Shown here: in pieces, positions 6,873 to 37,244 of the stretch | How positions within the stretch are numbered: the stretch's first letter is position 1 | Layout of the letters: every line of letters begins with the position of its first letter | Source: Acidihalobacter aeolianus | Lineage (GTDB): Bacteria > Pseudomonadota > Gammaproteobacteria > DSM-5130 > Acidihalobacteraceae | Assembly: GCF_001753165.1 (NCBI RefSeq) | Contig: NZ_CP017448.1 | Location: forward strand, 391,183-455,182 | Direction of reading: 5' to 3' | DNA: 64,000 nt | Program-made: the position numbers and the translations under genes | The notes under the pieces: model-generated | What the model was told of the DNA's origin: nothing | Seen by the model: the letters and a program-made list of their open reading frames with translations, nothing else | The model's database searches: none

Positions 6873-7874
6873 TCAATGGCCGGCGGCGATGGCCTCCACG
6901 AAGTGGGGGTACAGCGTCTTGGCGAGGTCGGGCATCTTGTGCATCGTGCCGTTGGCGATGAGGATGCCGCCGATCACCTTGCCGCTGGTATAGAACGAGT
7001 CGATGGCCTTGGACGGCTTGAAGTTCATCACCGCCTGCGCCGGGGTCGGGTTGTGGATGCCGTCGAGCTGGCTGGCGACCTCGTCGGGCTTGATGCCCAT
7101 GGATTCGGCGATATACACCGCGGCCTTCTTCGGGTGGGCCTTCATGTAGGCCAATCCGTCGTAATACGCCTCGACCATGCCCTTGACCTCGGCCTTGTGC
7201 TTGACGATGTAGCTGTGCTTGAACACCAGCACGTCGGTGATCAGCCCCGGCGCCTTGCGACTGGAGAAGAGCACGTGGAAGCGCTTGCCGCCGTCGGCCT
7301 TGACCACCGAGGAGACGCTGGGTTCGTAGGTCACGCCGACCTTGACGTTGCCGCCGATCAGGGCCGCCGGTACCGCGCCGGGGTCCATGTTCACCGAGTG
7401 CACGTCCTTGAGGCTCATGCCGTTCTTCTGCAGCGCGTAGGCGAGCAGGAAGGCGGACGGCGAAAGGGCGTTGTAGGCGACGTTCATGCCGCGGATCTGC
7501 TTGACGCTGGTGATGTCGTCGGTGGAGACCATGGCGTCGGCGCCGCTGGAGTAGTCGATGGGCAGCGCGACCTGCAGATCCCAGCCCTTGGCGGCGCCCG
7601 GCAGTACCTGATCGTAGGTCAGGGTGGCGCCGTCGATGGAACCGCCCTCGACCGCCGCCGGCATGGTGGCGTTGTCGGAGAAGTTGGTGAACTTGACCTT
7701 GACGCCATGTTTCTCGAAGGCGTGGATGTGTTCGGCCACGTAGAGCGGCGCATAGCCGATCCAGACCACCGTGCCGATGCTGACAGTCGGCATGGCAGAG
7801 GCGGTGCCGCCGGCGAGCGCCGAGGCGGCAAGCAGGCAACCCAGGGCAAACTTGATCGTCGGTTTCGTACTCAT
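6873..7874 (-). CDS. ABC-type substrate-binding protein of the nitrate/sulfonate/taurine (NMT1/SsuA-TauA) group
   Basis: The 333-residue protein begins with a Sec signal peptide (about residues 1-27, ending GTASA) and continues as an NMT1/THI5-like periplasmic binding protein (VSIGTVVWIGYAPLYVAEH, later PAALIGGNVKVGVTYEP). It should capture a small organic nitrogen or sulfonate compound in the periplasm. It is the first gene after the guanidine-type riboswitch and terminator, so it is the immediate regulatory target. No permease or ATPase gene lies in the operon, so the membrane part of the transporter must be elsewhere or shared. SBPs of this group are recurrent targets of guanidine-I riboswitches in other bacteria. 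Confidence 0.88.
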   Translation of the reverse strand: MSTKPTIKFALGCLLAASALAGGTASAMPTVSIGTVVWIGYAPLYVAEHIHAFEKHGVKVKFTNFSDNATMPAAVEGGSIDGATLTYDQVLPGAAKGWDLQVALPIDYSSGADAMVSTDDITSVKQIRGMNVAYNALSPSAFLLAYALQKNGMSLKDVHSVNMDPGAVPAALIGGNVKVGVTYEPSVSSVVKADGGKRFHVLFSSRKAPGLITDVLVFKHSYIVKHKAEVKGMVEAYYDGLAYMKAHPKKAAVYIAESMGIKPDEVASQLDGIHNPTPAQAVMNFKPSKAIDSFYTSGKVIGGILIANGTMHKMPDLAKTLYPHFVEAIAAGH

Positions 7875-19421: not shown

Positions 19422-19564
19422 GAACGGCTCGGCCTAATGTAGGTAGGCGTTTTATAGGTGCTTTAGGGTCGGGCCGCGCATGGGGTGTCGTATCTAGGAA
19501 TCGGTGAGCTTCACCGGTGTTTGTGCGCATGGTCGAGAGACCTTGTTCAATTTGGGAGGAGAGT

Positions 19565-20959
19565 ATGAATCGAAAGAAACTTTCAGTCGGCAAGCTGGCT
19601 GCGGCCATCGTGGCCGGTGGTGCCGCGATGGTGGCTGCGCAGGAAGCGCATGCCGTCCCGGCGTTCGCCAGGCAGTTGGGCGTGTCCTGCGCGGCCTGTC
19701 ACACCGTCGAGCCGCAGCTGACCTCGTTCGGTCGCCAGTTCAAGTCGCTGGCCTACACCTTCAATTCGGGCAGCAACAACACGATCAGCTATGAGCAGAA
19801 TGGTGAGAAGCGCTTGGCTATCGACAAGATTCCGCCGATCGCGCTGATGATGATTGCGGATGAGAGCTGGTCGGGGAAGGCCAACAACGCAAGTGGTACG
19901 CCGAATCCCTCCGCGGATTTCCCGGGCCAGTACAGCTTGTTCTACGCGGGCCGCGCGGGCACCGATCTGGGCGTGTTTTCGCAGTTGACGTGGGATCCGA
20001 CGACCAACTCGGTGGGTATCGACAACACGGACGTGCGCTATGCCAAGGAGACGCCGGTTGGTAATGGCAACCTGGTCTGGGGCCTGGATGTGAACAATGC
20101 CCCAGGTGTGGGTGACCTCTGGCAGGATACGCCGATTTGGGGTTTCCCATTCTATTCGCCGGTACAGGGTAATGCAGGCAATGGTGGGCCCATCGGTACA
20201 GTGTTGGGTAATGTTACGTTGCAGGCGAATTCTGTAGGAGCAGGCGGTTACGTTTGGTACAACAATACCTACTATGCACAGGTCATGCTCTACCGCGGCA
20301 TGGTTCCTGGCAGCACTGTAAATACGCTTAACGGAACCATTTCCAACGTGGCTCCTTACTGGCGGTTGGCCTATTCCCACGAAGGTGGGGTCAATTCCTG
20401 GGAAATCGGCACTTTTGGTATCTATGGAAAATCTTATGCTGTTGGGATGACCTCAGGCCCGCAGGCGAAATACCTCGATACCGCACTGGATGGACAGTAT
20501 GAGCACGTTGCCACGAATTACAGCTATACGATTCGTGCGTCATATATCCATGAGTCCTTGAAGGTTCCGAACGCGATGGTTCCGAACAGTACTACCGCGA
20601 GCGGCAATACGACTGGCAGCGTAAACCAATACCAGATCAACGGGCAGTATTACTGGCATCGTAAATATGGGGTTGTAGGCCAGTACTTCGGCGTTAGCGG
20701 GTCTACTAATGCCAATTTGTGGGGTGATTCGGGTGCTAATACACCAGTTGCCGCGCCTGCGTTGCTGTCAAATGGTGGTGGCACATCTAGTATCAATGGC
20801 AGCCCGGACACCAGCGGTGAAATCCTGCAGGTGAATTATCTGCCGTGGATCAACACCAAGTTTGGTGTGCAGTACGTTGCATTTAATAAGTTCGATGGCA
20901 GCAGCACCAATGCTTCGTATAACAACACCTTGTCCGTGTTCATGTGGCTCATGATGTGA
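19565..20959 (+). CDS. cyc2: Outer-membrane monohaem cytochrome c Cyc2 (Fe(II) oxidase)
   Basis: The 464-residue precursor starts at the ATG at 19565 after a strong GGGAGGAG ribosome binding site. It has a signal peptide (1-30, ending AHA), one c-type haem motif CAACH at 42-46, and then about 410 residues of alternating, aromatic- and Gly/Asn/Ser/Thr-rich sequence typical of a beta-barrel, ending in a terminal aromatic/Met strand (SVFMWLMM). This fused cytochrome-porin layout and length match Cyc2, which takes electrons from Fe(II) at the cell surface. It is the first gene of the iron-oxidation operon. A strong hairpin terminator follows directly, which may favour higher expression of cyc2 than of the oxidase genes. 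Confidence 0.92.
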   Translation: MNRKKLSVGKLAAAIVAGGAAMVAAQEAHAVPAFARQLGVSCAACHTVEPQLTSFGRQFKSLAYTFNSGSNNTISYEQNGEKRLAIDKIPPIALMMIADESWSGKANNASGTPNPSADFPGQYSLFYAGRAGTDLGVFSQLTWDPTTNSVGIDNTDVRYAKETPVGNGNLVWGLDVNNAPGVGDLWQDTPIWGFPFYSPVQGNAGNGGPIGTVLGNVTLQANSVGAGGYVWYNNTYYAQVMLYRGMVPGSTVNTLNGTISNVAPYWRLAYSHEGGVNSWEIGTFGIYGKSYAVGMTSGPQAKYLDTALDGQYEHVATNYSYTIRASYIHESLKVPNAMVPNSTTASGNTTGSVNQYQINGQYYWHRKYGVVGQYFGVSGSTNANLWGDSGANTPVAAPALLSNGGGTSSINGSPDTSGEILQVNYLPWINTKFGVQYVAFNKFDGSSTNASYNNTLSVFMWLMM

Positions 20960-27819: not shown

Positions 27820-28383
27820 ATGAAGAAGGAGCAGTTCGTGAAGAATCGCATCGTCAAGACGATCGCCGGCGCGGCCGGTATGGGTGCCATGCTGGCCATG
27901 GGTATGGCGCACGCTGGTGTGACGACGATCGGCAAGCCGGGCGTCATCAAGCTGATGAAGGAAGACACGGGCAAGGTGACGGGCCATAATCAGGTCACCT
28001 ACTCGGGCGCTAACCCGCACACGGTGATTGAGCAGGTGCTGCCTGGCTTCCCCTTCCCGTCGTTTGAAGCCGATAAGCAGACCAACCCGACCTTGATTTA
28101 CGGAGCCGGTGTGAAAAAGGTGACGATCTCTGTGATCAACACCAACGGCGGGGCCGAACACAGCTTCATGATCACCAAGAAGGGCCCTCCTTACAGCGCC
28201 ATGCCGAATCCCAGCAGCCTGCATGCGATGGCAGTGGTGCCTGAGCTGCCCGCTGCCAGCGGTGGCCAGTTCAACACCGATACCGTGGAATGGACGCCCC
28301 CAGGCCCAGGCACCTATTACTACCTGTGCAAGACCCCTGGCCATGCCTCGACCGGCATGCACGGCAAGATCGTCGTCAAGTAA
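27820..28383 (+). CDS. rus: Rusticyanin (type I blue copper protein)
   Basis: The 187-residue precursor starts at 27820 after AGGAGG and has a signal peptide (about 1-32, ending MAHA). The cupredoxin domain carries the four copper ligands of rusticyanin: H114 (GGAEHSFMI), C170, H175 and M180 (CKTPGHASTGM). The mature sequence is collinear with Acidithiobacillus rusticyanin, a highly acid-stable, high-potential periplasmic electron carrier between Cyc2 and downstream cytochromes. It is the last large gene of the operon, 148 nt after the 43-residue gene. That gap holds its ribosome binding site and possibly its own promoter. Confidence 0.95.
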   Translation: MKKEQFVKNRIVKTIAGAAGMGAMLAMGMAHAGVTTIGKPGVIKLMKEDTGKVTGHNQVTYSGANPHTVIEQVLPGFPFPSFEADKQTNPTLIYGAGVKKVTISVINTNGGAEHSFMITKKGPPYSAMPNPSSLHAMAVVPELPAASGGQFNTDTVEWTPPGPGTYYYLCKTPGHASTGMHGKIVVK

Positions 28384-29415: not shown

Positions 29416-30192
29416 ATGGGCCTTGAGCAGTTCAAGCGCAACAGAACCCCGCTAGCTGGGGTCGCCCTCGGTACGGTGATTGGTCTCTTGGTAGCGTATG
29501 CGATGGCAGTCATATTGCCGTGGCGCGCACCGCCGCAGCGGCCGGATTTTGCGGCGGCGGGTGACGCCCCGAAACGGATGTTTAAGTCCCCTCATTTTGT
29601 GGGCTTCGTGAATCAGTTGGGTAACCGCGTCGGATCGCAGGATTTTTCCGGCAAAGTGGTAGTGGTTACCTTCATGTATCCGTTTTGCACGCGCGGTTGC
29701 CCGATCATTGCGTCTCATATAGTCAATCTGGAGCGCCTGCTTCGTGAACGTGATCTCCAGGGAAAAGTGCGTTTTTTGAGCTTTAATGTTGATCCGTCAG
29801 ACAGTACTCCGCGGCTGATGAGTCAATTTATGAGCCAATATGGCGCTGATCCTGCCGATGAGATGTGGCAGTTTCTGATGGCCTCACCCAAACAAACGGA
29901 TGAGGTAGTGAAGCAGGGTTACCATGCCAGCTTTGAGAAAATTCCAACCACCAAGCTGGAAGGGATATTTAAAAGGCAACGATCATCTGGCGCTTATACT
30001 TATGTGGCGGAAATGAGCAATCCCCTCGCAACAGCAAATAGGCCTGACTATACGGTTCTGCATACCACATCAGCGATTATTGTCGGGCCCAAAGGCGTAG
30101 TGAGGTATGTGCTGAGTAAAGCAGATACGATATCAGTCGCGGCGGTGCTTAACGATATCATTCGTGTGCTGCGTACAGGGAAGCCGGTATGA
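29416..30192 (+). CDS. Sco1/SenC copper chaperone for the oxidase CuA site
   Basis: The 258-residue protein has one N-terminal membrane helix (about 17-37) and a Sco-type thioredoxin fold. The copper ligands are all present: C91-x3-C95 in YPFCTRGCP and the distal His in YTVLHTTSAIIVGPKG. A Sco-specific insertion is also seen. Sco proteins deliver copper to CuA of subunit II. The stop codon overlaps the next gene, a second Sco-like protein, by 4 nt. Confidence 0.9.
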   Translation: MGLEQFKRNRTPLAGVALGTVIGLLVAYAMAVILPWRAPPQRPDFAAAGDAPKRMFKSPHFVGFVNQLGNRVGSQDFSGKVVVVTFMYPFCTRGCPIIASHIVNLERLLRERDLQGKVRFLSFNVDPSDSTPRLMSQFMSQYGADPADEMWQFLMASPKQTDEVVKQGYHASFEKIPTTKLEGIFKRQRSSGAYTYVAEMSNPLATANRPDYTVLHTTSAIIVGPKGVVRYVLSKADTISVAAVLNDIIRVLRTGKPV

Positions 30193-31025
30193 GCTCAGAC
30201 GTACAAATCGGTCAAGGCCAGCGTTCATATTTCTGGTATGCAGTCTGGGTAGGTGTTTTCGTGGGGTTGTTGTTTGGTTTTGCAGTCTCGAGTTTGGTGA
30301 GTACTGTGAAATATCATGATCTAAGAGAGAAAACAGCTACTCAACGTGAACGTGTGGTTGGTATGTTGCCATCCCAAGTAAAGCACGGACGTTTTGGAAA
30401 GGCGCCTAAGTTTACTGGGCTTATCAATCAAAATGGTCAGCCAATCAATTCAGCGAACTTGGCCGGCAAGGTGCAGGTCGTCAGTTTCCTCTCTCCTTAT
30501 GGCGTACACACTACCCCAGTGCTTGTGGCTAATCTACGGAATCTGTATCAGGATCTGGCGCAGAGTCATTTGCTGGGAAGCAAGGTTGTGTTTGTCTCGT
30601 ATAACCTCGATCCGCAGCATGCTGACCCGAAAGCCTTATCGCAATTTATGCATGATCTAGCTGATCTGGGATCGAATGATTCCGCTAACTGGCAGTTCCT
30701 GACGGGGTCCGAATCAACTATCGGAACCATCGTCGCAGGCCGCTATGGTGTTCATTATCATGTGCTTGACGATGCCGATAAGGCTGAGTACGTAGAGCGG
30801 ATGAAGAAGACTGGTGAGTACGATTACGCGAAAGCGATCAACCCATTGGCGCAAAATGCGCCAAAGCATCAGCGCATTGTTAGCCACAATGTAGTCTTCC
30901 TGGTTTCTCCGAATGGCGATATAAGGATCAGGATAAACCAAGCGGATGCCTATCCGACGAGCCGATTGCTGTATGAGATTGTATCCATGCTGAAATTACC
31001 CGGTATGGATAAAGGCGGAAACTAA
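30189..31025 (+). CDS. Sco-like protein lacking the CxxxC copper motif
   Basis: The 278-residue protein has a membrane helix (about 14-38) and a Sco/thioredoxin fold parallel to the preceding gene. At the copper site, however, the aligned segment reads SPYGVHTTP, so the two Cys are replaced by G105 and T109. The distal His region (VSHNVVFLVSPNGD) is kept. It therefore cannot bind copper like Sco1 and may be a scaffold or partner. The 4-nt overlap with the true sco gene suggests a heteromeric pair. A terminator follows. Confidence 0.82.
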   Translation: MSSDVQIGQGQRSYFWYAVWVGVFVGLLFGFAVSSLVSTVKYHDLREKTATQRERVVGMLPSQVKHGRFGKAPKFTGLINQNGQPINSANLAGKVQVVSFLSPYGVHTTPVLVANLRNLYQDLAQSHLLGSKVVFVSYNLDPQHADPKALSQFMHDLADLGSNDSANWQFLTGSESTIGTIVAGRYGVHYHVLDDADKAEYVERMKKTGEYDYAKAINPLAQNAPKHQRIVSHNVVFLVSPNGDIRIRINQADAYPTSRLLYEIVSMLKLPGMDKGGN

Positions 31026-31046: not shown

Positions 31047-31073
31047 GAGGGGCCCCGTCTGGGGCCCTTCTTC
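31047..31073 (+). terminator. Intrinsic terminator after the Sco pair
   Basis: GGGGCCCC (31049-31056) pairs with GGGGCCCT (31061-31068, one G-T pair) around a GTCT loop and is followed by TCTTCGTTGT. It sits 21 nt after the Sco-like stop codon and separates it from the bc operon. Confidence 0.75.
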
Positions 31074-31413
31074 GTTGTCAGCCCACGCTCCAGTACCGCG
31101 TGTGACGAGTGCGTTGCAAACCACCCAGGGACCGCAGGGTGTGGTCGCAAGAAAATCCACGTGGGGTGGCTCGCTTTGCGAAAATTCACGGCATAACTGA
31201 CTCGTTTTGCGACACTTCTGGGGGGCTGGTGAACGAGTTATGTGGCTGTGAAGACGATAGGCGATGTCTGTTATCGGGGCGCTAACTTACTGTTTCTATG
31301 CTTATAAAGTGATTCATTAACGTAATCATGCGATAAATTTATGCGTAGATAAGAAAGCTGGCATGATTCGAGCAAGAGTTGCTGGGCCCTTGGCAGACAT
31401 TCAGAGGACAGCA
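31074..31413. other. Intergenic region upstream of the bc1-type operon
   Basis: The 340-base gap holds no recognisable gene. Two imperfect direct repeats containing CTCGCTTTGCGA and CTCGTTTTGCGA lie near 31170 and 31200, followed by an AT-rich stretch (31290-31350) where the promoter of the petABC-like operon must be. I could not define a convincing -35/-10 pair. Confidence 0.4.
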
Positions 31414-32025
31414 ATGACCGTACGCAAAGAAAAGCAGGAAGAGCGCCGTGAGTTTCTGAGCTCCAGCGTCAAGCTCGCTGGAGCGGCCACCGTTGGCGCC
31501 TTAGGTGTGCCCATGTTGGACGGTCTTAATCCTAGCGCGGCAACTGAAGCGGCATCGAGCGTTGAAATAGACGTGTCCAAAATCCCACCGGCTGGCCAGG
31601 TGACCGTGCCTTGGCAGGGTAAGGCGGTGATGGTGATGAACCGGACGCCTGCGATGCTGGCGACACTGGAAAAGGTGCAGGCGCAGGGCATTCTTAAGGA
31701 TCCAGACCTCAAGGTGCCGCAGCAACCGCCTTACGCGAAGAACATCTACCGAGCGCGTATGGAGCACAAGAATCTCCTGGTCTTGGTACGCATCTGCACA
31801 CACATGTGCTGCATCCCCCTTTACAAGCCCAAACCCAACTCAGTGCGGCCAGGATGGCTGGGCGGATTTCACTGCCCGTGTCATGGCTCGATGTACGACC
31901 TGTCTGCCCGCGTCATCGTGACCTCGCCAGCACCGCGCAATATGGCGATTCCGGAATACCACTACGAAGACGGTGGCAAGAAGGTGGTGGTGACCAAGAT
32001 GTATCCCAAGGCGAGATTGTGCTGA
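31414..32025 (+). CDS. petA: Rieske iron-sulfur protein of a bc1-type complex
   Basis: The 203-residue protein (start at 31414; an upstream in-frame ATG at 31363 is less likely) begins with a twin-arginine-type anchor (ERREFL followed by SSSVKLAGAATVGALGVP). It ends in a Rieske domain with both cluster boxes, CTHMCC and CPCHGS. The disulfide Cys of box 1 is at the expected position, with Met and Cys where CTHLGC is usual. It carries electrons between the quinol site and cytochrome c1 on the periplasmic face. It is the first gene of the operon with split cytochrome b and c1. Confidence 0.95.
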   Translation: MTVRKEKQEERREFLSSSVKLAGAATVGALGVPMLDGLNPSAATEAASSVEIDVSKIPPAGQVTVPWQGKAVMVMNRTPAMLATLEKVQAQGILKDPDLKVPQQPPYAKNIYRARMEHKNLLVLVRICTHMCCIPLYKPKPNSVRPGWLGGFHCPCHGSMYDLSARVIVTSPAPRNMAIPEYHYEDGGKKVVVTKMYPKARLC

Positions 32026-32077: not shown

Positions 32078-32725
32078 ATGAAGGCGACTGCGATGAGTTC
32101 AACGCCGGATATTGGGACCAAGGCCAAGGCCTTGCGGTCGAGATTCTGGCGTGTGCTGGGGGCGATGTCGATCGTGCTGATCGGCATCCAGTTCATCACC
32201 GGGGTGTTTCTGCTCATGAACTATCACCCGGGTGGTGAGGGAGGGTCGGCCGCATACAACTCGGTGATGAGCATTATGTACGACGTACGCTGGGGTTGGC
32301 TCGTGCGCTACATCCATACGACGGGCGCCTCGTTGTTGTTCATCATCGTGTATCTGCACATGTTCCGAGCACTGTGGGACCGAACCTACAAAAAGCGCGG
32401 CGGGAAGGTCTGGCTATGGGGAACCACGCTGCTGGTTCTGCTGATGGGTGAGGAGTTTTTCGGTTACATCCTGCCCTACGGGAACATGTCTTTGTGGGGT
32501 GGCATGGTCATTACCAATCTCTTTGGTTCCGTTCCAATCGTTGGGCATGATTTGGTGACCTGGATACGAGGCGGGCCACTCGTGAGCACGCCGACCATCA
32601 ATCGTTTCATGGCGTTCCACGTAGCTGTAATTCCGATGGCGCTGGTTGCGCTGATCGTCATGCACCTGCAGAACCTATACAGCCTTCGAATCGAGCAGGA
32701 GGCCAGCCGCTCGGCACAGCGCTGA
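32078..32725 (+). CDS. petB: Cytochrome b, N-terminal half (helices A-D), split type
   Basis: The 215-residue protein stops after four membrane helices and so is a cytochrome-b6-like half rather than a full cytochrome b. Haem ligands are H80/H94 (13 residues between) and H181/H196 (14 residues between); the latter spacing is typical of b6-type proteins. The Qo-region segment YGNMSLWGGMVITNLFGSVP is present. The C-terminal half follows in the next gene, fused to a flavoprotein. AAGGAG lies just before the ATG at 32078. Together the two halves would bind the two b haems and the quinone sites. Confidence 0.93.
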   Translation: MKATAMSSTPDIGTKAKALRSRFWRVLGAMSIVLIGIQFITGVFLLMNYHPGGEGGSAAYNSVMSIMYDVRWGWLVRYIHTTGASLLFIIVYLHMFRALWDRTYKKRGGKVWLWGTTLLVLLMGEEFFGYILPYGNMSLWGGMVITNLFGSVPIVGHDLVTWIRGGPLVSTPTINRFMAFHVAVIPMALVALIVMHLQNLYSLRIEQEASRSAQR

Positions 32726-32785
32726 GCGAGTGTAGGTCAACCGGTTTTGCACTGAGGTGAAGTTCCACTGATCGAGGTTCAACAG

Positions 32786-34765
32786 ATGGCGTCAGAACAA
32801 AAACGTGTGGTGGTGATCGGCAACGGCATGGCCGGGAGTCGATTCGTCAAGGAATTGCTTAAGCTTGCGCCGGGCGCATACGAAATCATCGTATTCGGCG
32901 ACGAACCCTATTCGGCCTATGACCGAATTCAGCTCAGCCCATTGCTGGCAAACGAGCGTTCCCTGTCCGACATCATGATCGATGACGAAGCCTGGGTGGG
33001 CGACGGCGGTAACCGTCTGTACAAGGGCCATCGCATCGTCAATGTGGATCGGGAACGACGGGTTGTAACCTCTGATAAGGGTATCACGGAGGCCTACGAC
33101 TATCTGGTGTTTGCCGTCGGTTCGAAACCCATGGTGCCGCCCATTCCGGGACGCGAGCTGCCCGAGGTCACGGTGTACCGCACCATAGACGACGTTGATT
33201 ACATGCTTGAGCGTGCCGGCAAGCATACGCATGTGGTGGTGATCGGTGGCGGTCTACTGGGTCTTGAGGCTGCCAATGCACTGCGCGTGCAGGGCGCGGA
33301 AGTGGCGGTGGTGCATATCGCCGATTGGCTGATGGACCGCCAGCTGGATGCGGGGGCATCGCAGTTGCTGCAACGTCGCCTGGAAAGCAAGGGTATTGTC
33401 TTCCACATTCCACGGATGACCGAATCCATCGTCGGCGAGGAGCACGTCGAAGCGGTACGATTCCAGCGGGGTGAGGAAATTCGTGCCGATATGGTTGTTA
33501 TCTGCGCGGGTATCGTGCCTGACACCGACCTGGCTAAAAAGATCGGCCTTAAGGTGGACCGAGGCATTGTGGTCAACGATCAACTGGAAACCAGCGATCC
33601 GGCAGTATTTGCCATCGGCGAGTGTGTCCAGCACAAGGGTAAGACCTACGGCCTTGTAGATCCTTGCTACGACCAGGCAAGGACGCTGGCGCGTTATATG
33701 TCAGGCGATATGGCGGCGGCCTACGGCGGTTCGCAGCCGTCGACGCAACTCAAGATCACCGGCATCGACCTTTATTCTCAGGGTCAGATCATGGGTGGCG
33801 AGGGCATCGATGAGCTGGTCTACGTCGATGCGAGGCGCGGTGTCTACAAAAAGGCCTGCATCAAGAACAATCGGGTTGCCGGCTGCATCCTGTATGGGGA
33901 CGTGAACCTATCCCAGTGGTTCAAGGAATTGATTCGCAGTGGCGAGGATATATCTGACCGGCGTGATGTATTACTGGTTGGCGGTAGTTCGGATGGCGAA
34001 CCCATAGATGTGATCGGTAACCTGCCGGATACCGCGGAGATCTGTACCTGCAATTCGGTTACCAAGGGCGAGATCGTCAGTGCGATCAAGATGCATAACC
34101 TGTCCACGGTTGAAGATATCAGGTTGACGACGCGTGCTGCATCTTCCTGTGGGACCTGCTCGCGCCAGGTGGATCAGATATTGTCGATGGAATTGGGCTC
34201 GGATTATGCCGAATCCACTCCGAAGACGCTGAGTATCAATATCGATCTGTTTTCGTATTTCCGTGAGAAGGATCTTTTCTTTTATGCCTTGCTCGGGACG
34301 ATATTCGCAGCGATCGTATTCTTTGAGCCGACTTTCTTCAATATTTTCATCGATCAGGATAACTCAACACCTGCCAATACGCTGAAGTCGCCGGCTGACG
34401 TGAGACCCCTGTTTTTCCTGGGCCCGTTTTACGCGATTCTGCGCTCCATTTCTGACAAGCATCTTGGCGTGTTGATGATGACACTGGCCATCGTCGTGAT
34501 GTTCCTGGTGCCATTTCTCGACAATACGCCCGAGGCTCGGGTCAAGCCGCATCCGTTGTTTGATAACACGTACAAAGTGCTGCTGTTATTCATGCTTATT
34601 TGTTACATCGTGCTCGGCTGGATCGGGTTCGAGCCTGCGACTCCGGTGCTCGCTTATTGGGGGCGCTGGTTCACCATCGGGTATTTCGCGTTTTTTGTGG
34701 CTATGCCAGTGTTGAGTCTGCTAAGGCGCTGGACCGCACATAGATTCGCCGGTGGACAAACTTAA
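32786..34765 (+). CDS. Fusion of NirB-like NAD(P)H/FAD/[2Fe-2S] oxidoreductase with cytochrome b C-terminal half
   Basis: Residues 1 to about 410 form a NirB/NasD-like pyridine-nucleotide-disulfide oxidoreductase: FAD motif GNGMAG at 12-17, nucleotide-binding motif GGGLLG at 154-159, and a second FAD motif (VFAIGEC). Residues 420-458 form a BFD-type [2Fe-2S] domain with C420, C422, C455 and C458. In place of the sirohaem domain of NirB, residues about 485-659 form four membrane helices with the cytochrome b subunit-IV pattern (DQDNSTPANTL, FYAILRSI, then LVPFLDN). The Qo motif PEWY reads PLFF at 541-544. No stop codon or frame change separates the parts. Helix E of cytochrome b starts on the cytoplasmic side, so the flavoprotein would sit next to the Qi site. 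I infer quinol-to-NAD(P)+ transfer; the reverse is possible. Confidence 0.93.
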   Translation: MASEQKRVVVIGNGMAGSRFVKELLKLAPGAYEIIVFGDEPYSAYDRIQLSPLLANERSLSDIMIDDEAWVGDGGNRLYKGHRIVNVDRERRVVTSDKGITEAYDYLVFAVGSKPMVPPIPGRELPEVTVYRTIDDVDYMLERAGKHTHVVVIGGGLLGLEAANALRVQGAEVAVVHIADWLMDRQLDAGASQLLQRRLESKGIVFHIPRMTESIVGEEHVEAVRFQRGEEIRADMVVICAGIVPDTDLAKKIGLKVDRGIVVNDQLETSDPAVFAIGECVQHKGKTYGLVDPCYDQARTLARYMSGDMAAAYGGSQPSTQLKITGIDLYSQGQIMGGEGIDELVYVDARRGVYKKACIKNNRVAGCILYGDVNLSQWFKELIRSGEDISDRRDVLLVGGSSDGEPIDVIGNLPDTAEICTCNSVTKGEIVSAIKMHNLSTVEDIRLTTRAASSCGTCSRQVDQILSMELGSDYAESTPKTLSINIDLFSYFREKDLFFYALLGTIFAAIVFFEPTFFNIFIDQDNSTPANTLKSPADVRPLFFLGPFYAILRSISDKHLGVLMMTLAIVVMFLVPFLDNTPEARVKPHPLFDNTYKVLLLFMLICYIVLGWIGFEPATPVLAYWGRWFTIGYFAFFVAMPVLSLLRRWTAHRFAGGQT

Positions 34766-34816: not shown

Positions 34817-35503
34817 ATGGGAATGAATATCCGCAGAGCAGCCTGGCTAACCCTTGCGTTGGGGCTGGTATCGACAAATTCATGCCTTGCAGAAGCGGCG
34901 CCAGCTTTGCGCGCTCCGCATTACACGATGAATCGCTCAACTATTATCAAGGGAGCTGAATATTTTGGGCAGAATTGCCTTTCATGCCATAGCGTGAAAT
35001 ACCTTCGTTATATCAATCTCATGAAGGGCCTTGGTATGAGTCAAAAGGAGCTTACGCAGTTTGTGATGCGACCTGACGGCGCCAATATTCACGAAGGGAT
35101 GACCGTCACTATGACCAAGAAGGAGGCTTCAAAATTCTTTGGGAAACCACCGCCTGATCTATCGCAAATCGAACGCTACCTGGGTCCGGGTTTTATCTAT
35201 ACCTATCTGACCAGTTTCTACCTAGATAACAGCCGGCCGACCGGCTGGAACAATCATGTGTTCCCGGATGTGGCGATGCCCAACGTCTTGGCACCGTACG
35301 GTGGTCAGTATCTGAAGGATGGAAAGCTTTACCACAAGGGGTCGATGACACCGAAACAGTACAAGACGATGGTGGCCGATATTGTTGCGTTCTTGCGTTA
35401 TGCAAGTGGCCCCTCTGTGCTAGAGCGCCATGAAATCGGACCTTATGTGGTGGGCGGATTTGGAATCGCTACCGTGATCGGATTCATCATCGCGATTCTG
35501 TAA
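34817..35503 (+). CDS. petC: Cytochrome c1
   Basis: The 228-residue precursor has a signal peptide (about 1-28), the haem c motif CLSCH at 54-58, the c1 hallmark region ending in the Met ligand (NHVFPDVAMPNVLAPYGGQY) and a single C-terminal membrane anchor (IGPYVVGGFGIATVIGFIIAIL). This is standard cytochrome c1, linking the Rieske protein to soluble c-type cytochromes. It follows the cytochrome b fusion gene by 51 nt. In this organism it could run in reverse, taking electrons from a high-potential cytochrome. Confidence 0.95.
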   Translation: MGMNIRRAAWLTLALGLVSTNSCLAEAAPALRAPHYTMNRSTIIKGAEYFGQNCLSCHSVKYLRYINLMKGLGMSQKELTQFVMRPDGANIHEGMTVTMTKKEASKFFGKPPPDLSQIERYLGPGFIYTYLTSFYLDNSRPTGWNNHVFPDVAMPNVLAPYGGQYLKDGKLYHKGSMTPKQYKTMVADIVAFLRYASGPSVLERHEIGPYVVGGFGIATVIGFIIAIL

Positions 35504-35547: not shown

Positions 35548-35892
35548 ATGGATGCAGGATTGACGAATTCGACGTCTGGAAACAGCTTTAAGAACGGGCT
35601 TTGGGCAATTGTCTTTGGCATGCCGCTAGTGCTCGATCTTGGTATACCAGGGATTGTGAATTTGATTCTGTTCTTCTTGGTGATGCTGGCTTTGAGCATG
35701 ACTTATCGAATGGCTGCGCATGCTGAAAGACGTGCCTTGCTGTTGTCGGCTATGAGTGCCGGCTTCTTCGTGACTGCGCCTAATTTTAGAGAAATGTATC
35801 CATTGACAGCGCCGCTTGTAGTGCTGCTGCTAGTGCTGACCTTTTATTACATTTTTCTATTTATCCGTGAAATTCTGGGGAGTGAGAAATGA
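35548..35892 (+). CDS. 114-residue membrane protein of unknown function in the bc operon
   Basis: The protein has three or four hydrophobic segments (LWAIVFGMPLVLDLG, IVNLILFFLVMLALSMTY, LLSAMSAGFFV and APLVVLLLVLTFYYIFLFI) and no metal-binding motif I can see. It lies 44 nt after petC, and its stop codon overlaps the dihaem cytochrome gene by 4 nt. It may be an accessory subunit of the bc complex, but no family was recognised. Confidence 0.75.
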   Translation: MDAGLTNSTSGNSFKNGLWAIVFGMPLVLDLGIPGIVNLILFFLVMLALSMTYRMAAHAERRALLLSAMSAGFFVTAPNFREMYPLTAPLVVLLLVLTFYYIFLFIREILGSEK

Positions 35893-36638
35893 TGGGGCGG
35901 CGTTGGTTCGGAATGGATGGTCGGCAATTCGCGTCCGGGGTCCTCGTTGTTTCAATGGCTTTGCTCGCTGTCCCATCGCACGCCGGGCCTAAAAATGGCG
36001 TTATCGGCGTGATTAATGGTGGCGGCAACCCGGAGTTGGGCAAGGCCGATGCCAAAACCATGTGCATCGTGTGTCACGGAGCAGATGGTATATCGCCGGT
36101 CAATGGCTTCCCCGACCTGGCCGGGCAGTGGCCGCAATATTTGTTGAAGGAATTGCATAATTTTGCTTCAAAGAAGCGAGATGATCCGTTGGCCAAGGGT
36201 ACGATGATCGACGCCGTGAAAACTATTCACGGCGAGACTGAAATGCAGGATCTGGTCGCCTTTTTCAGTTCGCTCGCGCCGCCGAAGGCAAAGCCCGTGC
36301 CTACCAAAACGAAGGATCTCGCGATGTGGAAGGCGGGTAAGAACATTTTCTATGGTGGGATACGCGCTACCGATGTCCCCGCCTGTGAGGCATGCCACAG
36401 TGCGACAGGCGCCGGCATTCCGCCCGAGTTCCCGCGGTTGGCGGGCCAGAATAAAACCTATCTTGTGGAACAGTTGACCTACTTCCACGACGGGACACGC
36501 GCGAATGATCCCAACGGCATTATGCGTGACATCGCCGGTCGTTTGGATAAACAGGAAATTTTGGCGCTGGCTACATTCATTCCCACATTGTCGGGTGGAG
36601 CGCCGACGACAAGATTGCCCGCATCCCAGCGACGTTGA
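35889..36638 (+). CDS. Dihaem cytochrome c4-type protein
   Basis: The 249-residue precursor has a signal peptide (about residues 10-32) and two class-I c haem motifs, CIVCH and CEACH, each followed by the c4-type FPDLAGQ or FPRLAGQ segment and a distal Met. Two similar halves indicate a cytochrome c4. In Acidithiobacillus, c4-type cytochromes (CycA1) encoded with bc1 genes are periplasmic partners that pass electrons from the rusticyanin pool to the bc complex. The location after c1 supports that role here. The ATG at 35889 overlaps the previous stop codon. Confidence 0.93.
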   Translation: MMGRRWFGMDGRQFASGVLVVSMALLAVPSHAGPKNGVIGVINGGGNPELGKADAKTMCIVCHGADGISPVNGFPDLAGQWPQYLLKELHNFASKKRDDPLAKGTMIDAVKTIHGETEMQDLVAFFSSLAPPKAKPVPTKTKDLAMWKAGKNIFYGGIRATDVPACEACHSATGAGIPPEFPRLAGQNKTYLVEQLTYFHDGTRANDPNGIMRDIAGRLDKQEILALATFIPTLSGGAPTTRLPASQRR

Positions 36639-36678: not shown

Positions 36679-37194
36679 ATGAACGATACGGGCAATTCCA
36701 GTGACGGTTCAGGGCTAAAAGCAGCGAACTTCCAGGTGGAATGCCATGGCCTGGAGTGCGTCAACCGAGGCATTACCCTCATGCTCGGCATTGGCGTCCT
36801 GCTGCAGCTGATCAGTGGTAATGCATTATTTCACGCCGGCATCTTCGACCATATGTGGGTGCATGACGCACTTGCAGTGAGCTTGTTGCTCGCGATGGCC
36901 TTCCAGTTGCGCTGGTGGTATTCGATTCGCCCCACTTCGAAAAGTGGGCTCGGCGGTGTATGCGCACAAGGGGTAGGTGTCTGTGCGATCAGCCTGCTGT
37001 GCTTGACTGGCTTTCTCGGTGCACTGTTCAGCGTATTTTCCAGCGCTGACGCTGGCGGTCTGTTTAAGGAAGATCTGCTGGCACACCACTATCTAGTCTA
37101 CGGCGTCTGGGCTTATCTCACTGTTTATTTGGTTTTTACGCTGGCACGTCGTTTCGGCGGTCAGCCCTCCGATCAGGGCCCTAGCAGGGCCTGA
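36679..37194 (+). CDS. Four-helix membrane protein of unknown function, possible b-haem protein
   Basis: The 171-residue protein has about four hydrophobic helices (ITLMLGIGVLLQLISG, ALAVSLLLAMAFQL, VGVCAISLLCLTGFLGALF, YGVWAYLTVYLVFTLA). Several His residues lie near membrane boundaries (FHAG, FDHMWVHD, LAHHYLVY) and could ligate haem b as in small b-type cytochromes. I do not recognise the family, so the haem idea is only a suggestion. It is the last gene of the bc operon and is followed by a terminator. Confidence 0.7.
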   Translation: MNDTGNSSDGSGLKAANFQVECHGLECVNRGITLMLGIGVLLQLISGNALFHAGIFDHMWVHDALAVSLLLAMAFQLRWWYSIRPTSKSGLGGVCAQGVGVCAISLLCLTGFLGALFSVFSSADAGGLFKEDLLAHHYLVYGVWAYLTVYLVFTLARRFGGQPSDQGPSRA

Positions 37195-37213
37195 CCGAGC
37201 ACCTCGGGATTCT

Positions 37214-37244
37214 GGGTGCGGGCTCTCCGCACCCGGCTTCTTTC
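37214..37244 (+). terminator. Intrinsic terminator at the end of the bc operon
   Basis: GGGTGCGG (37214-37221) pairs with CCGCACCC (37227-37234) around a 5-base loop and is followed by GGCTTCTTTCTCCC. It lies 20 nt after the stop codon of the last membrane protein gene. Confidence 0.75.

Follow-up and report, generated by a model that had tools for sequence, protein, structure and literature searches.

The question raised by this locus is what a reductase module of the NirB type may be doing inside a cytochrome b. The DNA analysed (the window) is a stretch of 64,000 nucleotides from Acidihalobacter aeolianus (assembly GCF_001753165.1, contig NZ_CP017448.1, positions 391,183 to 455,182 of the forward strand), in which one gene (32786..34765, + strand) encodes a NirB-type module for NAD(P)H, flavin adenine dinucleotide (FAD) and a [2Fe-2S] cluster followed by cytochrome b helices E-H. 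The fusion is genuine: an intact NirB-type FAD/NADH/[2Fe-2S] module is joined to helices E-H of a gammaproteobacterial cytochrome b. Its operon combines intact cofactor sites in the module, loss of residues of the Qi quinone site, and retained haem ligands, Rieske protein and cytochrome c1. The answer put forward tentatively, with a chance that falls a little short of even, is that the operon encodes a second, dedicated complex of the bc1 type, with an NAD(P)H port in place of the cytoplasmic, quinone-reducing (Qi) half of its Q cycle.

The open reading frame (ORF) of the fusion runs through 659 amino acids with zero internal stops, and four Pfam domains, all scoring above their gathering cut-offs, cover its product. 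These are Pyr_redox_2 at residues 7-285 (2.1e-58), which corresponds to the FAD- and NAD(P)H-binding domains with the motifs NGMAG and GGGLLG (32804..33640, +; seen also in the alignment and the AlphaFold model), Rubredoxin_C at 318-386, the reductase C-terminal domain (33737..33943, +), Fer2_BFD at 419-467 (1.8e-14), the BFD [2Fe-2S] domain (34040..34186, +), and Cytochrom_B_C at 529-634 (1.2e-23), which lies within the helix E-H part formed by residues 476-659 (34211..34762, +). The NCBIfam model for NirB, TIGR02374, matches the protein only with its positions 1-479 out of 794 and reaches 490 bits against a cut-off of 578; therefore, the sirohaem part of NirB is absent from the fusion protein, which has the FAD/NADH domains and the BFD [2Fe-2S] domain of that family and lacks the sirohaem/[4Fe-4S] domain expected after the latter. 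Cys420, 422, 455 and 458 of the BFD domain were confirmed by alignment. Among 20 aligned module rows (three fusions and 17 NirB-like ones in alignment A4, the very long NirB-like rows L015 and L016 being excluded), NGMAG was present in 19, and GGGLLG together with the four BFD cysteines in all 20; the module shares 45-51% identity with its 14 best NirB-like matches outside the fusion. The initial annotation of this DNA had described a single uninterrupted 659-codon frame, a NirB/NasD-type flavoprotein with a BFD domain, and a membrane part standing in place of the sirohaem domain, and each of these points holds, the three domains that it named for a search (Pyr_redox, Fer2_BFD and Cytochrom_B_C) having all been found, the first as Pyr_redox_2. 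Upstream, the 60 bases that separate the fusion from the preceding gene petB-N (32726-32785) are in frame and contain TGA stops only; the same gap measures 58 bases in two further genomes of the genus (G001 and G002), and no readthrough from petB-N into the fusion is therefore implied.

The fusion was found in three of the five sampled genomes of the order, namely in all three of the genus and in neither of the two of the sister genus. The two other copies are stop-free, syntenic and 89-90% identical to that of the window, so that neither a stop or frameshift at the junction nor homologues always kept as separate genes, which the initial annotation had named as grounds for giving up its proposal, were encountered. 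In the class, 145 of 369 genomes matched a profile of BFD plus cytochrome b at 1e-25, and only the two members of the genus in that sample matched both of its parts, the other listed matches starting at position 64 at the least, past the BFD domain. In the phylum, only the window's own genome out of 398 passed 1e-36, and in the order to which genome G030, with the closest full-length cytochrome b, belongs, this threshold was passed by 2 of 31 genomes, both with ordinary cytochromes b. Thus, in class and phylum samples that overlap and were scanned with the best 6-7 candidates per genome, the fusion was not seen in 367 other class or 397 other phylum genomes, where diverged fusions may be missed, and the architecture search suggested at the outset led to two other genomes of the genus only. 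A pattern scan of genome contigs, made with poor patterns, gave only NirB-length loci among the matches listed (at least 6).

The ratio of nonsynonymous to synonymous divergence (dN/dS) amounted to 0.024-0.068 in those seven of nine segment comparisons that allowed dS to be computed, values that are rough since dS is near saturation, while dN ranged from 0.038 to 0.067 for the flavin part, from 0.055 to 0.123 for the BFD part and from 0.051 to 0.073 for the cytochrome part. By these estimates the fusion is under purifying selection. In a tree of 22 modules, which kept the two very long rows L015 and L016, the three fusions group together (99/99) on a long stem (1.6) and fall outside a 14-row group that holds the NirB of the genus, the support of this group being modest (87/84); a placement of the fusion clade with the genus NirB, as a possible source of the module, gave p 0.17 in the approximately unbiased (AU) test.

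The cytochrome b itself is divided over two genes. The first, petB-N (32078..32725, +; PF00033 and alignment), carries helices A-D with the haem ligands His80, 94, 181 and 196 and scores 173.5 bits against the bc1 cytochrome b of Pseudomonas aeruginosa (8smr), compared to 96.4 bits against the best b6, and the C half in the fusion scores 84.2 bits against 8smr and 33.2 bits against the best subunit IV while aligning across the entire E-H part of full-length cytochromes b. Among solved structures, both halves are thus closest to a full-length gammaproteobacterial cytochrome b, and therefore the gene has been split between helices D and E. As judged from these comparisons, the starting point was a full-length gammaproteobacterial cytochrome b, which was opened in the loop between helices D and E, the flavoprotein becoming attached ahead of helix E. 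The closest full-length relative, in G030, sits between a Rieske gene and a c1-like ORF in what reads as the ordinary petABC order. The suggestion that the halves are b6f-like had to be abandoned, as b6 and subunit IV both score below 8smr, a bc1-type cytochrome b, and these bit scores rule out a b6f-type origin; the wide spacing of the helix D ligands, considered as a b6-like sign, is shared by the gammaproteobacterial rows.

Residues were counted in the three split cytochromes b and in 25 full-length ones, among which five belong to the same genus. These 25 are the non-redundant full-length frames among the top-scoring loci of several searches, not a random draw (in one of these searches, petB-N found a match in 287 of 369 sampled class genomes); duplicate copies of a gene and a partial frame of 200 amino acids (L049) were omitted. 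All four haem-ligand histidines are kept in 3/3 split and 25/25 full-length rows. The Qi histidine (yeast 202) and the Ser-Asn-Asn loop, on the other hand, occur in 25/25 full-length and 0/3 split rows, all three split rows having Tyr, Ile, Glu and Gln where the full-length ones have His, Ser, Asn and Asn. The eroded site corresponds to petB-N residues 201-207 (32678..32698, +), which read Tyr-Ser-Leu-Arg-Ile-Glu-Gln in the place of His-x-x-Gly-Ser-Asn-Asn in the relatives. His202 and Asp229 of yeast hold the Qi quinone in bc1 structures, according to PMC9162462; the point of attachment of the module therefore coincides with a missing wall of Qi.

The Qo motif is altered as well, to Pro-Leu-Phe-Phe at fusion residues 541-544 (34406..34417, +; alignment). 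Its Trp is present in 25/25 full-length rows and is Phe in the three split ones, and its Tyr is present in 22/25, the remaining three (conventional cytochromes b of the genus) and all 3 split rows having Phe. Consequently, only the Trp-to-Phe change is peculiar to the split form, the Tyr-to-Phe change being found also in three of the five conventional cytochromes b of the genus. The conventional bc1 of the host (G000:C1:1385063-1385542, L024) has PLWF at Qo, a motif seen in 3/25 full-length cytochromes b, all of this genus. Loss of the glutamate of PEWY was set aside as a special sign, 25/25 full-length relatives having Leu or Val there. The Qi losses and the PLFF motif are additions to the initial annotation. 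Taken by its parts (a Rieske protein of the ubiquinol-cytochrome c reductase family, TIGR01416, four histidine ligands for two b haems and a cytochrome c1), the system is a Rieske/cytochrome b complex, yet it is not classed here as a Q-cycle bc1, as its sequence lacks the Qi His and Ser-Asn-Asn, with Lys and Asp present, and has PLFF for P-x-W-Y at Qo.

In the AlphaFold model, the flavoprotein module has a predicted local distance difference test score (pLDDT) mostly above 90. Compared by structure, using approximately residues 240-650 of the modelled chain, it resembles NADH-dependent reductases, with Z scores of 38.7 to 40.1 among the first 19 matches; the best match is 1xhc (Z 40.1), and BphA4, the reductase of a [2Fe-2S] ferredoxin, is matched at Z 39. 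These first 19 matches are without cytochrome b folds, which excludes nothing.

The start of helix E lies on the cytoplasmic side in bc1 structures. The placement of the flavoprotein on that side, near haem bH, which had been proposed from cytochrome b topology, is thus upheld, and the residues favour exchange with bH over exchange with a Qi quinone. We infer from the sequences that haem bH has the module as its redox partner, in place of the Qi quinone. Electrons would then be exchanged among FAD, [2Fe-2S], bH, bL and the quinone at Qo, whereby NAD(P)(H), quinone and cytochrome c would be coupled. The host has what such a specialised complex would leave to others: a second operon, read as Rieske, c4-like cytochrome, full-length cytochrome b with HQVGSNNP, and c1 (only the cytochrome b being confirmed by family, PF00032), and NuoD, which is above cut-off in 5/5 genomes of the order. 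A conventional bc1 with an intact Qi loop and NuoD being present, the fused complex is therefore free for another job. Two conventional cytochromes b each are found in G001 and G002, and a separate frame of NirB length (871 amino acids) lies elsewhere in the host genome.

The direction of electron flow was approached through energetics, with midpoint potentials of +90 mV for ubiquinone (PMC9162462) and -320 mV for NAD (PMC2754497), and with an assumed donor at +640 or +700 mV, cytoplasm at pH 6.5, 10-50 mV inside positive and Qo protons exchanged with the periplasm. In six settings at periplasmic pH 1.8-3, bifurcation of quinol electrons to cytochrome c and NAD+ is unfavourable by 229-427 meV per turnover, and the reverse, NADH and reduced cytochrome c to quinol, is favourable by +229 to +427 meV. 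In the same settings, the ordinary route to NADH (reversed bc1 and reversed complex I, 8 protons per NADH) yields +181, -59, -176, -296, -533 and +156 meV per NADH, being favourable in two and unfavourable in four, and a route primed by NADH, which uses 12 protons for each net NADH, comes out positive throughout (+176 to +1228). Therefore, at acid pH an NAD(P)H port feeding the b chain is preferred over an anammox-like bifurcation and over a direct wire, the direction of flow being itself an inferred feature. A more specific version, which is doubtful though worth stating, is that the complex works as a confurcating, NADH-primed, low-gear reverse complex III for iron oxidisers living in salt. 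One Fe(II) electron arriving through c4, c1 and Rieske and one NADH electron arriving through the b haems might together reduce quinone at Qo, with protons drawn from the acid periplasm, and the quinol so formed would feed reversed complex I. One NADH would thereby prime two, a low gear of 12 instead of 8 protons per net NADH in a bookkeeping that assumes 4 H+ per complex I turnover.

Several observations weigh against the NAD(P)H port. The Qi Lys and Asp (yeast 228/229) are retained in 28/28 rows, the three split ones included, and since they are kept, some quinone may bind at Qi of the split cytochrome b. The membrane part is without a confident model in both structure predictions (predicted template modelling score, pTM, 0.56 each): in the first, made from alignment A2, full-length cytochromes b were misaligned and none spanned petB-N, and in the second, made from alignment A4, the C half was weak; alignment A3, in which the C halves were at just 13-21% identity, was dropped unused. 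Therefore, no cofactor distance or placement is claimed and only the flavoprotein part of the models was used. A. ferrooxidans V8, of the same family, is an iron oxidiser with rus operon genes according to its genome paper (PMC5477407) and is without the fusion; iron oxidation in itself therefore does not depend on it. A seventh acid setting, with the donor at +500 mV, makes both routes favourable (ordinary +461 meV, primed +1486), so that the ordinary one suffices there. Forward bifurcation is also unfavourable (-439 and -415 meV) in two settings close to neutral pH that have a donor at +250 mV and ubiquinone and are no test of the menaquinone-based anammox case; acidity is therefore not the sole reason. 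All these figures assume midpoint potentials, equal concentrations and assumed donor potentials; we estimate that very uneven concentrations could move these values by about 0.3 eV, enough to count at pH 3 and not at pH 2. The primed route wastes energy, and no expression, spectroscopic or biochemical data on the complex were found in the literature.

Among other explanations, the one that survives best, although it is unlikely, is forward bifurcation in the anammox (anaerobic ammonium oxidation) style, whereby a quinol, for instance from sulfur oxidation, would be split at Qo with one electron going to cytochrome c and oxygen and the other through the b haems and the module to NAD(P)+. Such a reaction has been proposed for two Rieske/cytochrome b complexes of Kuenenia with NAD(P) oxidoreductase subunits (PMC12954380); the same logic of parts applies, a low-potential chain ending at a flavoprotein with a doubtful Qi in both, and the host is an oxidiser of both sulfur and iron (PMC5255921). 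Against it stand the deficit of 229-427 meV at pH 1.8-3 in the six settings, which becomes 567 meV at pH 2 with a +500 mV donor, and the position of the operon beside the iron cluster.

It is quite unlikely that the complex serves as an NADH dehydrogenase, with NADH electrons entering at bH and reducing quinone at a residual Qi while the Q cycle is otherwise kept. This would agree with the retained Lys and Asp and with NirB-type modules being NADH oxidisers as a family; it fits poorly with the loss of the Qi His and Ser-Asn-Asn loop in 3/3, with the presence of a NuoD-containing complex I and with the scarcity of NADH in an autotrophic iron oxidiser. Improbable, too, is a module standing outside the b-haem path, either as a membrane-anchored NADH reductase for some other acceptor or as a redox sensor that tunes the complex. 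Room for it is left by the membrane part, which lacks a confident model, and by distances and potentials that are not fixed, but the fusion point is the Qi-side loop, loss of Qi residues accompanies the fusion in 3/3, and no separate acceptor domain is attached.

In bc1, the quinol at Qo reduces haem bL with one electron while the second goes to Rieske, and Rieske and bL are connected through this quinone chemistry. This mechanism speaks against a direct wire, in which Fe(II) electrons would reach NAD(P)+ directly by way of c1, Rieske and the b haems, without use of the quinone pool or complex I, and which we regard as highly improbable. The neighbouring rus cluster, c4 and c1 would suit such a wire, and iron oxidisers need uphill electrons (PMC2754497); however, the path climbs about 1 V per electron with no proton-coupled step to supply the energy, and within bc1 chemistry the forward reaction is the sole way to NAD+ and came out unfavourable in all settings tried. 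The initial annotation had proposed precisely a bc complex hard-wired for uphill transfer from Fe(II) to NAD(P)+, and this part of it is not supported, given the same deficit in the six settings, and is further weakened by V8, an iron oxidiser that is without the fusion and has an operon of short-chain dehydrogenase (SDR), Rieske and cytochrome b. An assembly, frameshift or annotation artefact has a negligible chance and is ruled out by the three genomes, which share an identical, stop-free architecture of 659 amino acids at 89-90% identity under purifying selection.

The surroundings of the fusion had been described as Rieske, split cytochrome b, c1 and c4 genes next to an iron-oxidation operon, and this is what was found: the pet operon begins about 3 kb downstream of the rusticyanin gene and has the order petA, petB-N, fusion, petC, orf114, c4-like cytochrome and orf171 (all features on the + strand). 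The petA gene (31363..32025) encodes the Rieske iron-sulfur protein (TIGR01416, 183 bits, cut-off 97.4) and is 94-95% identical in G001 and G002; petC (34817..35503) encodes cytochrome c1 (PF02167, 53.4 bits, cut-off 22.8). It is followed by a small membrane protein of 114 amino acids (35548..35892; no family above cut-off), 85-88% identical in G001 and G002, by a dihaem cytochrome c (35889..36638; PF00034 in two stretches) whose c4-like name comes from reading and position, and by a membrane protein of 171 amino acids (36679..37194; no family above cut-off). The latter is 55-64% identical in G001 and G002, has otherwise a single weak match (3.3e-4) in 185 class genomes and could be an extra subunit of the complex. 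Terminator-like hairpins flank the operon, one of 10 pairs (8 GC) before it at 31047..31070 and one of 11 pairs (8 GC) after its last gene at 37212..37236, both from a consensus scan that found 16 in the region with 7.5 expected.

Upstream, rusticyanin (27820..28383) was identified by PF00127 and by TIGR03095 at 131 bits, below the cut-off of 146.7; the gene is 87% identical and in the same place in G001 and G002, and the order from rus to orf171 is identical there. Two SCO1/SenC-like proteins (29416..31025; PF02630) lie between rus and the pet operon. Of the genes upstream of rus, cyc2, cup, cox, ctaA and ctaB were labelled by reading their ORFs, not by family search, and the Cyc2-like outer-membrane cytochrome (19517..20959) by sequence reading and the rus operon order in PMC10654088. 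Further rusticyanin-like matches occur in G001 and G002, and one such stretch (G002:C3:742814-743137) has four internal stops and is likely a dead copy.

In V8, a rusticyanin-like gene reaches 97 bits, below the cut-off, at 35% identity; around it (L101, L102), tblastn with cyc2, cup, coxB, coxA, ctaA and ctaB of the window gave no match, and the rus cluster reported in the genome paper was not located there. The V8 operon (L072:4344-7840) consists of a short-chain dehydrogenase, Rieske, a full-length cytochrome b with HRVGSNNP and APWY (outside the 25-row set) and a fourth gene. In the c1 position, the frame 7103-7840 is without a CxxCH motif and gave no match in Pfam; judging by its genes, V8 may thus have an SDR-Rieske-cytochrome b bc1 without a normal c1.

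Taken together, these results suggest that in the salt-loving, iron-oxidising Acidihalobacter iron respiration is linked to NADH in a way not described so far. Should the NAD(P)H port exist, a classical bc1 would show that rewiring of the Q cycle is possible by giving up one of its quinone sites to a flavoprotein linked to nucleotides. This would be a case separate from that of anammox, in an organism that can be cultivated, and it would open NADH formation in Fe(II) oxidisers to direct tests by spectroscopy. The fusion would also be a natural experiment on the dispensability of Qi and would have a counterpart in SdrA of the Acidithiobacillus petI operon, itself still unexplained.

As to known systems, the initial annotation knew of no described complex of this architecture. 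This stands for the fusion, no title or abstract describing it having been found in the published literature (subscription papers and preprints lay outside the scope), and needs qualifying for the wider idea, Rieske/cytochrome b complexes with a separate NAD(P) oxidoreductase being described for anammox bacteria in PMC12954380. According to that text, Kuenenia has two such complexes with a putative NAD(P) oxidoreductase, for which NAD(P)H formation by bifurcation was proposed and Qn is doubtful. These complexes of Kuenenia stuttgartiensis (Kuste4569-4574 and Kustd1480-1485) are the closest precedent, as far as the same source describes them, and their kind is itself still unproven. They share with the fused complex a split cytochrome b, a putative NAD(P) oxidoreductase on the negative side, a doubtful Qn and a proposed coupling of NAD(P) chemistry to Qo. 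Peculiar to them are a b6-like cytochrome b with subunit IV, haem cN, multihaem c, mainly menaquinone, a proposed forward bifurcation and a separate reductase (Kuste4570, Kustd1483) modelled with [4Fe-4S]/[3Fe-4S] clusters. Acidihalobacter, in contrast, has a bc1-type b, a NirB-type module fused to helix E, c1 together with a c4-like cytochrome, and an acidophilic life; with its fused BFD-bearing module and bc1-type b it falls outside the anammox type, whose features are taken from description, with sequences uncompared.

The bc1 of Pseudomonas aeruginosa (8smr) is the nearest solved relative of both cytochrome b halves and has the same Rieske and c1 families, the split and fused cytochrome b, the lost Qi His and Ser-Asn-Asn and the PLFF in place of P-(V/L)-W-Y being Acidihalobacter's own. 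NirB/NasB, the large subunit of assimilatory nitrite reductase, shares the N-terminal 480 residues with their FAD, NAD and BFD motifs, and differs from the fusion in having the sirohaem domain where the latter has cytochrome b helices. Finally, the petI operon of Acidithiobacillus (cycA-sdrA-petA-petB-petC, assigned to uphill flow) resembles the present one: both belong to iron oxidisers and combine bc1 genes with genes for a c4 cytochrome and an NAD(P)-binding protein (PMC2754497, PMC10654088). Its SdrA is a separate, functionally unassigned short-chain dehydrogenase, and it is this sdrA-petABC order that the V8 operon, with its full-length cytochrome b, recalls.

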